A DNA stretch of 64,000 nucleotides from an uncultured Chloroflexales bacterium (GTDB lineage: Bacteria; Chloroflexota; Chloroflexia; Chloroflexales; Chloroflexaceae): assembly GCA_937967405.1 (NCBI GenBank), contig CALCJV010000029.1, positions 62,001 through 126,000 of the forward strand, written 5' to 3'. Shown piece by piece: positions 43,960-63,663 of the stretch (position 1 is the stretch's first letter; every line of letters begins with the position of its first letter). A program made the position numbers and the translations under genes. Under the pieces are notes generated by a model, which saw only the letters and a list, made by a program, of their open reading frames with translations, did not search any database and had not been told where the DNA came from.

Positions 43960-45045
43960 TTAGTAGCGCAGGATCAGCGCAATCTGATCGTGTTGCGGGA
44001 GCGTGCCATCATCTACAAAGACAACCCGCCCGCCCTTCGCTAGCACGATCTCGATCACCTCATCTACGGCATCATCCAGATCAGTCGGGTCGGTGGGGGT
44101 CTCAATCGGTTCCAAGCCCATCCCATCGGCTGCCACCCGCGCCGGATAGTGAAAATCCTCCTCGACAATCAGCACTGCGCCGCGCCCTTCGTGGGCCAAT
44201 CGCCACACCTCACCAATCGTGGAGGCGCAGCGTTGAGCCCCGATGGCGGCATCGAGTTCATCCAGCACCTGCTTGCGCTGTGCGGCGAGGGCTTCTTTGA
44301 CGGGGGGCCAGATGAGCTTGCCCAATTCGTGGGCGGAGGTAGTATCGTGGTTGCCGCGCAGGCTCGCAATCACTTTATCGGCGTTGCGAGCAACTTCGCT
44401 GAAGAACGAGAGATAGCGATCTACGCCCACCAATGCGATTGGGAGTGGGTCTTTTGCTAGAATCGCGGTCAGCTCATTGTCCACATTGCGGAAGAAAGCA
44501 CGGTGGTGCTCATCTCGATAAAGTGACGCATTCACGGCAGGATCGCTGGGCAAAGTGGTTGCGCCGCCGGGACCGCCGTGGGTCATGGGGAAGGCTCCGT
44601 AGCGCACCTCTTCGAGATCACCGCGCACCCCTTCAAAGAGGCGCGTGGGCTGCTCGCTGAGAGCGAGCACCCAATAACGCGGACTGCGGTTAAGGGCAAA
44701 CACGAGATCGCGGGTGAAGAAGTTCTCGTCAATAATCACCCGCTCCGGTAGCGTAAAGGGCAGGTAGTGCTTCTGGGCAACATCTTGATTGACAAAGATC
44801 ACTAAGCCATCGAGGGTATATCTGTAATCAATCTCATTGACGAGTTCATCGAGGGCTTTCAGCAGTGGCTCTACCTCACGCCGCGAGAATTCTTCAAGCA
44901 AGCGGTTGGTCATCTGCGTAACAAGATTTCGCACGCGGATCGGGTCTTGCTTGTTATCCGGCGAGGTGCGATGGGTTGGCAGGGTAATCGTTAGGCTAGG
45001 GTAGCCTTGATAGCTCTGGATCGTTTGCAGATCAGCACGATTCAT
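43960..45045 (-). CDS. baeRF3-type release-factor-like protein
   Basis: 361 aa. The whole length matches bacterial archaeo-eukaryotic release factor family 3 proteins: a TITLPTHRTSPDNKQDPIRV start, LVIFVNQDVAQKHYLPF, RYWVLALSEQPTRLFEG (strand preceding the eRF1-like middle domain) and LPIALVGVDRYLSFF. In the relevant loop no GGQ motif is seen, so peptide release is not certain; such proteins are thought to act on stalled or hibernating ribosomes. Start at 45045 follows GAAAGGACT. Single gene, converging on nuoN. Confidence 0.85.
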   Translation of the reverse strand: MNRADLQTIQSYQGYPSLTITLPTHRTSPDNKQDPIRVRNLVTQMTNRLLEEFSRREVEPLLKALDELVNEIDYRYTLDGLVIFVNQDVAQKHYLPFTLPERVIIDENFFTRDLVFALNRSPRYWVLALSEQPTRLFEGVRGDLEEVRYGAFPMTHGGPGGATTLPSDPAVNASLYRDEHHRAFFRNVDNELTAILAKDPLPIALVGVDRYLSFFSEVARNADKVIASLRGNHDTTSAHELGKLIWPPVKEALAAQRKQVLDELDAAIGAQRCASTIGEVWRLAHEGRGAVLIVEEDFHYPARVAADGMGLEPIETPTDPTDLDDAVDEVIEIVLAKGGRVVFVDDGTLPQHDQIALILRY

Positions 45046-59449: not shown

Positions 59450-60490
59450 ATGCTTCGGCTCACTTCCATCGGACTGTTCATGCTCCTACTGCTGGCGAGC
59501 TGTGCCAGCCCTGCCCCTGCACCGCCCGCGGCTAGCCCCGCACCGCCCGCCGCACCGCCTGCGGCTAGCCCCGCTGCGGCGACACCGGTCACAATCCGTA
59601 TGGGCTATGTTCCTGTGATTATCTTTGCGCCGATGTATGTCGCCATCGAGCGCGGTTACTTCGCTGAAGAGAACATCACCGTCGAGCTAACCCCCTTCCA
59701 AAGCACCAACGATGCGGTGGTGCAGCTTGGGGCAGGCAACTTCGAAGTGGCAATTGCGGGCGGCAATGCAGGCGTGTTTAATGCCCTGCAACGCGGGCTA
59801 GCCCTGACGGTAGTTGCGCCAATGCACCGCGAAAGCCCGCCGCTTGCTACGCCCCTGATTATCAGTGCCAAGCGCACCGATGAAATCAAGAGTGCCGCCG
59901 ACCTGCGCGGCAAGACGCTCGGCGTGAATGGCAACGGAACCGCAATTGAATATTGGTTGGCCCAAGCCCTCGCGCAAGGCGGGGTTGGGATTGACGAAGT
60001 GACGATCCAAGCAGTGCCGTTTCCGGCGATGGGGGCCGCCCTCGAAAACGGCACCCTCGATGGCGCGGTGATGTCTGAGCCGCTCGTCACGATCAACCGC
60101 GATCAGGGCATCGTTGAGATTCTCTCGGATGATTTTCTGGATGGCTTCACGGCCACCTACGTCTTTGTGAATAGCGATTGGCTCACGCAGAACGAGGATG
60201 TCACACGCCGCTTCCTGCGCGCCTACCTGCGGGCGGTGCGCGATTTGCAAGGCGACTACATGAACGCGGATATTGCCGCGATCATTGAAAAATACACGCA
60301 AGTGCCCGCCGCCGTAATTGAGCGCAGCGCGTTATCCTATTACGATGCCAGTGGTACAATACCTGTAGCAGATTTAGAGACGTTGCAGCAGTTCTTCCTT
60401 GAGCGTGGTTCGCTCGAATACACCGAGCCACTTGATCTGCAACCGTTTATCAATACAACCCTGTGGGCTGAGGTAGCAGCCGAACAGTAA
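59450..60490 (+). CDS. NitT/TauT-type ABC transporter substrate-binding lipoprotein
   Basis: 346 aa. Lipoprotein signal with lipobox LASC (Cys18), followed by an Ala/Pro-rich linker with repeated PPAASPAP units. Then a periplasmic-binding fold of the NMT1/SsuA type: IRMGYVPVIIFAPMYVAIERGYF, ADLRGKTLGVNGNGTAIEYW and DGAVMSEPLVT. It should bind a small sulfonate, pyrimidine-precursor or nitrate-like ligand on the outer face. No permease or ATPase gene is adjacent, so its transporter is elsewhere or it is an orphan receptor. Confidence 0.9.
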   Translation: MLRLTSIGLFMLLLLASCASPAPAPPAASPAPPAAPPAASPAAATPVTIRMGYVPVIIFAPMYVAIERGYFAEENITVELTPFQSTNDAVVQLGAGNFEVAIAGGNAGVFNALQRGLALTVVAPMHRESPPLATPLIISAKRTDEIKSAADLRGKTLGVNGNGTAIEYWLAQALAQGGVGIDEVTIQAVPFPAMGAALENGTLDGAVMSEPLVTINRDQGIVEILSDDFLDGFTATYVFVNSDWLTQNEDVTRRFLRAYLRAVRDLQGDYMNADIAAIIEKYTQVPAAVIERSALSYYDASGTIPVADLETLQQFFLERGSLEYTEPLDLQPFINTTLWAEVAAEQ

Positions 60491-60560
60491 CCGATGTGGG
60501 TCAAGGCTTAGCCCAATCAAACCCAATTGGGCAGCCTTGACTCCTGAAGTCGAGACCCGA

Positions 60561-61571
60561 ATGCCAGCATTGCCACCCAATCTGCCGCCCGTCATTGCAA
60601 GCCTGATGCAGCACGCCGGACGGCTGGCAGACGAATTGGCGGCTGCGCCCGTGCTCGGGCTAGTGCCAAACCCAGCCTTGTTGCTCGATGAACCCACGCG
60701 CACGCGCCTCCTCATGCACGACCCTTCGCTTGCCCCACTGCTGCGCCCGCTGCTCACAGCTGAGGATGCGCGGGCGTGGCATCACCCTGCCCCAGCGCAG
60801 TGGCAGATCAGCCTTGCGGCGGGGCAGTTTGCCAGCTTTGCCGAGCTTGCACAGACACATCCTGCGCTTGCCCGCCACCTAACCAAGCAGGGCATCCATG
60901 ATCCAGCGGCATGGTCGTTGCCCACTACCGCCGCCACCGTGCTAGCGGTAACGAGCGGCATTGCGGGCAGCCCCGCCACACCCACTGCACCACAACGGTT
61001 TGCACCGGTGCATGCGCCAACGCTAGTCGCCGCGCCGTTGCTGCTGATCCCCGATGACAACCCAATCCTGCTGGCGTTACTCCAATCGCGCCTACTCGGT
61101 GCGGTGCAAGCCTACCTGCCCGCCACATCGCCCGCCGCGCTGATCATGCAGCTGCCGATCCCCGCCGCCACCCCAGCGCAGTACCTCGCCCTGAGCGATC
61201 TCGCCCAGCAGCTTGGTGCGCTGGCTTGTACCCGTAGCGATCTAGAGCAAGCGGCCCGCACCCACATCCGCAAGAACCTTGGCCCCGCAGGCGCACGCCT
61301 GAACCGTGCTCTGTGGCAGTGGTGGGAACTCGATTTCGAGACATTTGTCGAGCAGGTGCAGGTGGCCTTTCACGGAGCCTTACCGGAGCCGTTCCACCCC
61401 GAATGGCGGGCGTGGCTCGCCGCCCAACGCGAGGCCCACCAACAGCATAGCACGCGCCTTGCAATCCTGCGCCGCTCGCTCGATCAAGCCGTGTATCGCC
61501 TGTATGGCGTGACTGCGGCCCAGATCACCGAGATCGAAACCTTGACACCATTTGGTGTGAGTGTGGTATAA
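60561..61571 (+). CDS. stand-alone TaqI-like specificity-domain protein
   Basis: 336 aa from the ATG at 60561 (a TTG at 60537 is in frame). It has no methyltransferase (NPPY) or nuclease motif, yet its course resembles the C-terminal target-recognition half of type IIG/IIL restriction-modification enzymes: LLLDEPTRTRLL...LLRPLLTAEDARAW (compare the IDExTxxxLI...LLRGxDIxRW pattern), NPILLALLQSRLL, ALIMQLPIPAATPAQ, WELDFETFVEQVQ and the ending SLDQAVYRLYGVTAAQI. It may be a relic or a repurposed DNA-recognition protein. Neighbours give no restriction context. Confidence 0.6.
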   Translation: MPALPPNLPPVIASLMQHAGRLADELAAAPVLGLVPNPALLLDEPTRTRLLMHDPSLAPLLRPLLTAEDARAWHHPAPAQWQISLAAGQFASFAELAQTHPALARHLTKQGIHDPAAWSLPTTAATVLAVTSGIAGSPATPTAPQRFAPVHAPTLVAAPLLLIPDDNPILLALLQSRLLGAVQAYLPATSPAALIMQLPIPAATPAQYLALSDLAQQLGALACTRSDLEQAARTHIRKNLGPAGARLNRALWQWWELDFETFVEQVQVAFHGALPEPFHPEWRAWLAAQREAHQQHSTRLAILRRSLDQAVYRLYGVTAAQITEIETLTPFGVSVV

Positions 61572-61639
61572 ATAAAAGGCCATCTTGGACAGTGCGCTGA
61601 TAGGCGGCGTGCTGGAGCGCGAACGAGTTGCTAAGGCGC

Positions 61640-62854
61640 ATGCACCGAATATACGTTTCAACCAATGGGAGAACGCCAATTCGCACGGCCCCGCCGCGCC
61701 CGCGTGTGCTTATTCTCATGGCACGCACGGGCGGCGGGCATGTCAGCCTTGCCGAAGCCCTCCGGGATCGTTTGCAGCCCACGATGGATGTAACCCTCGC
61801 CGATCCGATTGCGGCCGTGGTCCGCTGGCACTACCGCATTGTCAGCCGCCACGCACGTTGGGTCTGGTCGCTGGAATACACTCTGACGGACCGCCCCGCA
61901 CTGGCAATGCTGGCCCACCGTACCAACACACTGCTCAGTCGCTCGCGCCTGCACCGCCTGCTGGATGCAGTCATGCCCGATCTGATTATCTCAACCTACC
62001 CCTTCCTGACGTGGGAAGTCGCCCAGATTGTGCGCGAACGCGGCGCACACACGCCGTTGATCCTGCTCTTCGCCGATCCCGAAAACGTGCATCAGGCGTG
62101 GCTCAGTGCGCGACAGGCATGGGCTTTCGCGCCCACCCGCGAAGTCTACCAACAGGCAGCACTGGCCGGCTTTGCTGGCTCACGCCTGCACCTGAGCGGC
62201 TGGCCCGTGCGGGCGCAATTCTGGAATGCTGCCAACTACAGCCGTGCTGAGGTGTGTGCCGAACTCGGCTTGCACCCCGAACACCTGACGATCTTTGTGC
62301 AGGGCGGCGGCGAAGGTGCAGCGGGCTTTGCGAATACGCTGGAGAGCATCCAAGCCGCGAGCCGTGATGCTGAACAGTCGCTTCAGATTATCCTTGCAGC
62401 GGGCACAAATACCGCTCTCATTGAACGCTATACGGGGGTAGCTGGGCTGCGCGTGCTGCCGTTCACGCCGGACATTGCCCGCTACATGGCGGCGGCTGAT
62501 CTGGTGATGGGCAAAGCGGGCCCGAATACGCTGTTCGAGAGCGTGAGCTTGGGCAAGCCGTTTCTAGCAACCACGTACATTCCGGGTCAAGAGGCGGGCA
62601 ATCTCGCCTTTATCGAACGCTACCGGCTTGGTGGAGTGGCATTGACCCATGCCGCACAGTATCAACAGGTTCGGGCATTGCTCGATAGCCCACGCATCTT
62701 AGCGGGCTTGCAGGCAACGGTTGCGAGTTATCGCCGATGGAATGAATTGCACGCAGAGAAGATTCCCGCGCTTACACAGGAGATATATCAGTGCTTGCCT
62801 ACTCGCTTGAAGGGCGTGGCCCACCCCTCCTCCTCGTTCACGGATGGGGCGTAA
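61640..62854 (+). CDS. MGDG-synthase/MurG-like glycosyltransferase
   Basis: 404 aa from the ATG at 61640. N-terminal domain with VLILMARTGGGHVSLAEAL, the MGDG-synthase-type GGGH loop, and C-terminal GT28 domain with VMGKAGPNTLFESVSLGKPFL, which binds the UDP-sugar. GT-B fold enzyme that probably adds a sugar to diacylglycerol at the membrane; galactolipids are known in Chloroflexi. Overlaps the next gene by 64 bp. Confidence 0.85.
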   Translation: MHRIYVSTNGRTPIRTAPPRPRVLILMARTGGGHVSLAEALRDRLQPTMDVTLADPIAAVVRWHYRIVSRHARWVWSLEYTLTDRPALAMLAHRTNTLLSRSRLHRLLDAVMPDLIISTYPFLTWEVAQIVRERGAHTPLILLFADPENVHQAWLSARQAWAFAPTREVYQQAALAGFAGSRLHLSGWPVRAQFWNAANYSRAEVCAELGLHPEHLTIFVQGGGEGAAGFANTLESIQAASRDAEQSLQIILAAGTNTALIERYTGVAGLRVLPFTPDIARYMAAADLVMGKAGPNTLFESVSLGKPFLATTYIPGQEAGNLAFIERYRLGGVALTHAAQYQQVRALLDSPRILAGLQATVASYRRWNELHAEKIPALTQEIYQCLPTRLKGVAHPSSSFTDGA

Positions 62855-63663
62855 CGTATGACATCTGGCGCGTACTTGGGCCCCTGCTCCAGCCCTATTT
62901 CACCCTGATTAAAGTAGAACTGCCCGGACTTGGGCAGTCGCCTCCACCGCCGCCCGATCAGCCCTATTACGAAGCATGCGCCGATCAACTGGCGGCCTTG
63001 ATTGACCAGCTGGGGTATGAACAAGTGGCGGTATTGGCCTATTCAACGGGAACCCGCGCCGCCGAAACGCTCGTGTTGCGCTACCCGCACCTCGTTGAGC
63101 GGGTAGTCTTTCTGTGCCCCGTCTATCCCGAAGGCGGGCGGGCGGTGTATATGCAGGTGGTGGATTGCCTCGACCAGCTCGCCCCGCGTTGGGGCGATTG
63201 GATGCTCCGGGCGTGGCGGCTGCGAGCAATGGTGCAAATTCTCGGCTTCAATGGACGCGGCGGAGCCTATCTCCACGATTGGCTGCGCGAGATCAGCACC
63301 CAATCGGTGGCCGAGCTGAAGAACACCCTGCGCGATATTCCCCCCTACAAACGCCACGAGGTGGGCTTGCCGGATCAGCGCACGCTGTTTATCTGGAGCC
63401 GCTACGATCTGGTGCAGCCGCGCCCGCGTCGCCTGCTGCCCCAAGATCGCCTGCTCGATGCCGCGCATAATGCGCCGTTGTTTGCCGCCCGCAGCATTGC
63501 CCGCGAAGCGATCCCGTTTCTGCTCGGCGCAACTGATGGGTGCGAACAGCAGACTTACCCCACCCTTCGCACGCGCCCGTTCTTCTTTGCCCGCCCGCGG
63601 CCGGTGCGCTTTCTCGTGCGGCGGCTCGCTCCCATCCGCATGCGTAGGGGGCGCAGTGTATGA
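62791..63663 (+). CDS. alpha/beta hydrolase
   Basis: 290 aa from a GTG at 62791 inside the end of the glycosyltransferase gene. LLLVHGWGVTYDIW (oxyanion HG), nucleophile in VLAYSTGTRAAE (A-Y-S-T-G, Ala for the usual first Gly), and a possible His in LLDAAHNAPLF. An unusually basic C-terminal tail (RPRPVRFLVRRLAPIRMRRGR) may contact membrane. Ends in ATGA overlapping rpiA. Substrate unknown; lipid metabolism is suggested by the upstream gene. Confidence 0.8.
   Translation: MLAYSLEGRGPPLLLVHGWGVTYDIWRVLGPLLQPYFTLIKVELPGLGQSPPPPPDQPYYEACADQLAALIDQLGYEQVAVLAYSTGTRAAETLVLRYPHLVERVVFLCPVYPEGGRAVYMQVVDCLDQLAPRWGDWMLRAWRLRAMVQILGFNGRGGAYLHDWLREISTQSVAELKNTLRDIPPYKRHEVGLPDQRTLFIWSRYDLVQPRPRRLLPQDRLLDAAHNAPLFAARSIAREAIPFLLGATDGCEQQTYPTLRTRPFFFARPRPVRFLVRRLAPIRMRRGRSV

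Follow-up and report, generated by a model that had tools for sequence, protein, structure and literature searches.

What does a gene do in a chromosome if it encodes only the target recognition part of a restriction enzyme? The question is raised by an open reading frame in the window (the whole stretch of 64,000 nucleotides from an uncultured Chloroflexales bacterium analysed here). An earlier note, made from the sequence alone, saw in it the full specificity half of Eco57I/MmeI-like enzymes without methyltransferase or nuclease, and suggested that it could be a relic, an anti-restriction decoy or a repurposed DNA-binding protein. Below, this protein and its free-standing orthologues are called solos, and TRD stands for target recognition domain.

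60561-61571, + strand: solo TRD-like protein of 336 aa (P0001), an intact open reading frame from ATG 60561 to the TAA ending at 61571; start assigned by alignment with a sister species, identity by homology to the C-terminal half of type IIG enzymes.

An in-frame TTG is also present upstream, at 60537. In the alignment, ATG 60561 falls on the ATG of the orthologue in the sister species (G001; 84-85% identity, flanked by the same neighbours), and it is the likely start, because the DNA 5' of it contains indels between both species. The genes on either side encode, according to Pfam, an NMT1-like substrate-binding protein (upstream, same strand) and an MGDG-synthase-like glycosyltransferase (downstream). 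The former is a lipoprotein encoded at 59450-60490, with no ABC permease or ATPase among the genes scanned (59450-63663). No methyltransferase or nuclease gene adjoins the solo in Pfam searches of the four genes from 59450 on, and for these four genes the claim that a partner is missing from the window stands.

On its own, the 336-aa protein matched nothing significantly in Pfam, NCBIfam or PDB sequences, and in PADLOC it reached type IIG only marginally (E 0.018); its relation to IIG enzymes therefore emerged only with a family profile. Single-sequence matches to AbiEi_1 (E 0.035) and a PI3K C2 chain (E 4e-4) were rejected as chance, being partial, scattered and not family-wide. In 61 related genomes, relatives occurred either as free-standing frames of ~290-345 aa or as C-terminal parts of frames of 1240-1412 aa. 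A profile (A1) built from 22 orthologous solos covers, with its positions 5-305 of 307, the last ~330 residues of Eco57I-methylase proteins, and the matches run to the very C-terminus of Eco57I-domain proteins of 1270-1412 aa. In these long enzymes the Eco57I methyltransferase domain is followed by a weak-to-clear TaqI_C region. The solo profile matched individual enzymes of the closest type with E-values of 1e-72 to 1e-47 (hmmsearch), and its alignment with the IIG specificity halves extended over 323 columns (hhalign; probability 100, E 9e-57), a similarity that chance by no means explains. Furthermore, a PADLOC type IIG model was matched by 14 of the 22 solos (best E 1e-7), and the IIG specificity profile matches the recognition domains of M.BseCI (E 1.7e-11) and CamA (E 5e-5).

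The alignment starts at the TRD boundary, and Pfam searches of the 336-aa solo returned neither an Eco57I or N6_Mtase match nor a nuclease domain; the TRD and the C-terminal half account for the whole protein. These comparisons support the view that the solo gene is, by descent, the stand-alone specificity half (TRD and C-terminal helical part) of a type IIG-like enzyme. The end-to-end profile alignment thus bears out the "full specificity half" of the earlier note. As to the proposed likeness to Eco57I and MmeI, large (~1300 aa) Eco57I/TaqI_C-type proteins are indeed closest, but MmeI itself is not. In Pfam, the strongest of the weak hits is MmeI_TRD, seen in three of the 22 solos (best E 0.005). 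The profile search that the note had proposed did connect the solos with IIG specificity halves, but TaqI_C (PF12950) is absent from the Pfam matches of all solos; the homologous region is recognised in some full enzymes.

Conservation of solo forms, a point raised in the earlier note, extends to other members of the order. They are present in eight genera, as a single copy per genome: five from the window's family (g1, g4, g5, g7, g10) and three from a sister family, f4, of the same order (g21, g23, g26). The gene is missing from the families f2 and f3 and from several intermediate genera. In 300 Chloroflexota genomes from outside the order, the profile matched mostly long enzymes, frames cut by contig ends and short, partially matching frames. 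Two possible solos outside both families (G272, G268) turned out to be enzymes cut by contig ends. In two shorter frames (G148, 404 aa; G251, 291 aa), the similarity is weak and confined to a part of the profile. Phage records contained no match to the solo, and plasmid matches, where checked, were confined to the C-terminal parts of larger enzymes.

In a maximum-likelihood tree of the 22 solos and 29 enzyme TRDs, all solos lie on one side of a single branch (support 94/91). The solos together with a 217-aa sequence from G025 (g15), cut by a contig end, have support of 100/100. This C-terminal fragment (L108:5143-5793 and L133:4643-5293) is sister to all solos, and more of its features are still enzyme-like. 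It could represent either one more solo or, among the enzymes, the one closest to the ancestor. Grouping the window's genus with local IIG enzymes was rejected by the AU test (p 0.018), as was the same grouping for the f4 solos (p 1e-6). Because the branches of the tree are long, a single origin of the solos is favoured rather than proven.

The ratio dN/dS was 0.12-0.34 for six species pairs from five genera, estimated by two methods, and the solo gene is therefore under purifying selection. Could it still be the decaying relic of a broken restriction enzyme? Such a relic would agree with the loss of the gene in several genera and with the in-frame stop in the copy of G005 (L043:8603-9535; one TAG, due to decay or to an assembly error). 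However, the solos form a single clade under purifying selection, with intact frames in eight genera and with invariant residues of their own, and therefore this explanation, one of the three in the earlier note, is refuted for the family as a whole and retains hardly any probability. We are confident of descent from a IIG enzyme and of maintenance by selection.

The order of genes around the solo is constant within each genus and differs between genera, and the neighbours are ordinary chromosomal genes. They are a glycosyltransferase and an Rrf2 regulator in g4; a protein kinase and a penicillin-binding protein in g5; a UPF0029 gene overlapping the end of the solo and a STAND/BTAD regulator in g10; and a baeRF-family protein and lactate permease in g23. 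A conserved neighbour or operon partner was sought, and none is common to all genera and none is a restriction gene. In g23 the solo lies directly 3' of a bacterial-archaeal release-factor-like gene (baeRF family 3) on the same strand (L035:1169-3295, L042:7682-10028); a relative of this gene is present in the window at 44001-45045, far from the solo. A link with phototrophy was also dismissed: the solo is present in G045, which lacks reaction-centre genes, and missing from several genomes having them.

Comparison of the solos with the IIG enzymes, part by part, gave the following features.

60651-60680, + strand: residues 31-40, at the place of the base-reading loop GxxTGxNxAF of IIG enzymes; motif lost (GL--VPNPAL).

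60909-60986, + strand: residues 117-142, second reading segment; Pro121 replaces the base-reading R/Q after WEL.

61098-61133, + strand: residues 180-191, what is left of the third DNA-contact segment; shorter here than in IIG enzymes.

61161-61460, + strand: residues 201-300, retained core of the C-terminal half (PIP, LxxWWELDF at 61320-61337, W282), defined by columns common to both groups.

61461-61568, + strand: residues 301-336, IIG-like C-terminal tail (VYRLYGVTAAQITEIETLTPFG), from alignments A1 and A2.

The scaffold is largely shared. Positions W73, L107, P201, W254/W255, F259 and W282 are kept in enzymes and solos alike, R62 and P242 are invariants specific to the solos, and residues 226-275 are among the best-conserved stretches within them. 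According to alignments A1 and A2 (the latter with 40 sequences), the tail VYRLYGVTAAQITEIETLTPFG is kept in the window's genus and shortened in most other solos.

The positions that read DNA have fared differently. In the CamA-DNA structure, base contacts include Gln346/Ile349, Gln438/Trp439, Tyr455/Lys456 and Ser514/Ile517/Tyr521 (PMC8187626), and the CamA sequence in our profile alignment has the reported contact residues at the same numbers. Gln346/Ile349 map to the GxxTGxN loop, which is present in all 17 IIG TRDs and in none of the 22 solos. The position of Gln438, the reading R/Q of the WEL(R/Q) motif, holds R or Q in every one of the 17 enzymes and in none of the 22 solos, 18 of which have Pro instead. 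The third contact segment, which is the least certain part of the alignment, falls on average from 22.5 residues in IIG enzymes to 15.9 in the f4 solos and 6.4 in those of the window's family. The reading positions known from CamA are thus lost in the solos or replaced by Pro, Ala or Gly. We consider it probable that ancestral DNA reading was lost; the sequence relation to CamA by which we judge this is a distant one (profile E 5e-5).

The charge of the proteins varies. Most solos of the window's family are near neutral or acidic (pI near 6), and the g23 solos are mostly basic (pI up to 9.4). The latter, which also keep more of the third segment, could still bind DNA. Depletion of lysine was considered as a further signal and discarded: solos contain on average 0.7% and IIG TRDs 4.3%, but neighbouring genes average only 1.6%, and the difference mostly reflects host composition.

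The main rival to the reading preferred below is that of a sequence-specific DNA-binding protein (a regulator or nucleoid protein) repurposed on the TRD scaffold, with new loops reading a new target. The retention of the whole two-part scaffold from end to end, the basic g23 solos and the purifying selection would suit such a protein, but the fate of the CamA-known reading positions, the near-neutral or acidic character of most solos in the window's family and the missing conserved target operon or neighbour speak against it, and we regard it as a possible but rather doubtful explanation. Of the "repurposed DNA-binding protein" proposed in the earlier note, "repurposed" is what we favour, and "DNA-binding" has become questionable with the loss of base-reading elements in 22 of 22 solos.

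An anti-restriction or modulating function would mean that a dead TRD acts as a competitor of IIG enzymes entering the cell, either for DNA or for the methyltransferase domain of these enzymes. The solo does descend from such enzymes, and IIG enzymes of the same type are rarer in genomes with a solo (6/22) than in those without (10/15; nominal Fisher p 0.023). However, this contrast vanishes if genera are counted (4/8 vs 4/9), and we rejected the idea that solos exclude IIG enzymes. Furthermore, the solo is chromosomal and vertically inherited, no phage record matched it, the plasmid matches checked were parts of larger enzymes, and it has lost the loops that competition for DNA would require. 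The "anti-restriction decoy" of the earlier note has found no positive support, and we judge such a function improbable.

Type I and IIB systems have separate specificity subunits. BsaXI is an example (PMC9159934). By this precedent, the solo might be an HsdS-like subunit acting in trans with a methyltransferase encoded elsewhere. Against this stand the lost base-reading loops and two nearly complete genomes, G020 (100%) and G027 (99%), in each of which Eco57I/N6_Mtase family searches detected, alongside the solo, one gamma-class methyltransferase. In both, its gene adjoins an AccI-family nuclease gene and forms with it a self-contained AccI system; the G020 enzyme carries its own C-terminal specificity domain (M_Eco57I_C). 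There is therefore no universal gamma-class partner; a dedicated trans methyltransferase partner is unlikely, and a role as specificity subunit very improbable. Several methyltransferase-like open frames of exactly 486 aa recur within and between the g4 genomes G004, G019 and G026, possibly as a mobile or multi-copy family.

The reading that we prefer, with middling confidence, is that of a domesticated TRD which no longer reads its ancestral site and serves as a stoichiometric binding protein. A large type IIG (Eco57I/TaqI_C) enzyme very probably gave rise to the independent gene, from its C-terminal ~330 aa, in an ancestor of two Chloroflexales families. Since then the gene has been passed on mostly vertically and kept by purifying selection, although some genera have lost it. 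The protein would have ceased to read the ancestral DNA site and would bind stoichiometrically, via the scaffold that it has kept and via its conserved C-terminal helical half, either to a protein or to DNA without the old specificity. Binding of this kind is favoured because the solos have lost the DNA-reading elements but conserve the scaffold and the C-terminal helical half; that the protein binds another protein or DNA non-specifically, rather than with a new DNA specificity, has in our estimate about an even chance. More tentatively, and with less than an even chance, the recognition domain may have been converted once and permanently into an adaptor or regulator that does not read DNA and is kept lineage-wide outside restriction and methylation systems.

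Domestication of parts of restriction systems is well known for orphan methyltransferases. Our literature search for solo or orphan recognition domains brought up work on orphan HsdS or on type I/IIB systems and nothing else, and a domesticated recognition domain without a methyltransferase is not described in the literature searched. If the proposed reading is true, the part of a restriction enzyme that confers specificity can be exapted to serve the cell in another way, and the solo family, with its clear ancestor and cultured hosts, lends itself to asking what such a scaffold can bind.

Among known systems, type I HsdS, including orphan hsdS, resembles the solo in having the recognition domain on its own polypeptide. 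However, the searches made found no sequence relation between them, and the solo has neither a partner methyltransferase nor neighbouring hsdM/hsdR. M.BseCI and CamA, gamma-class enzymes with solved structures, have recognition domains homologous to the IIG TRD, but in these enzymes the domain reads DNA within a methyltransferase, and the solo lacks the corresponding loops. A TaqI_C-type methyltransferase of 1058 aa with the same C-terminal half is encoded on pSymA of Sinorhizobium meliloti (L113:1-8951), between an Hsp70-family gene and genes for a UvrD helicase and an ATP-dependent endonuclease, in what looks like a defence cluster. The closest counterparts are the type IIG Eco57I/TaqI_C enzymes (~1300 aa; REase_MTase_IIG in PADLOC), whose entire C-terminal specificity half is matched by the solo, without the Eco57I methyltransferase domain, the nuclease part, the GxxTGxN loop and the reading R/Q. 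The type IIL enzyme MmeI, unlike the solo, is one polypeptide of 919 aa that includes nuclease and methyltransferase, and it has no significant sequence match to the solo. Its TRD is followed by a C-terminal helical bundle, ~300 aa together (PMC4833311), and the solo has the same layout of TRD, then helical bundle.
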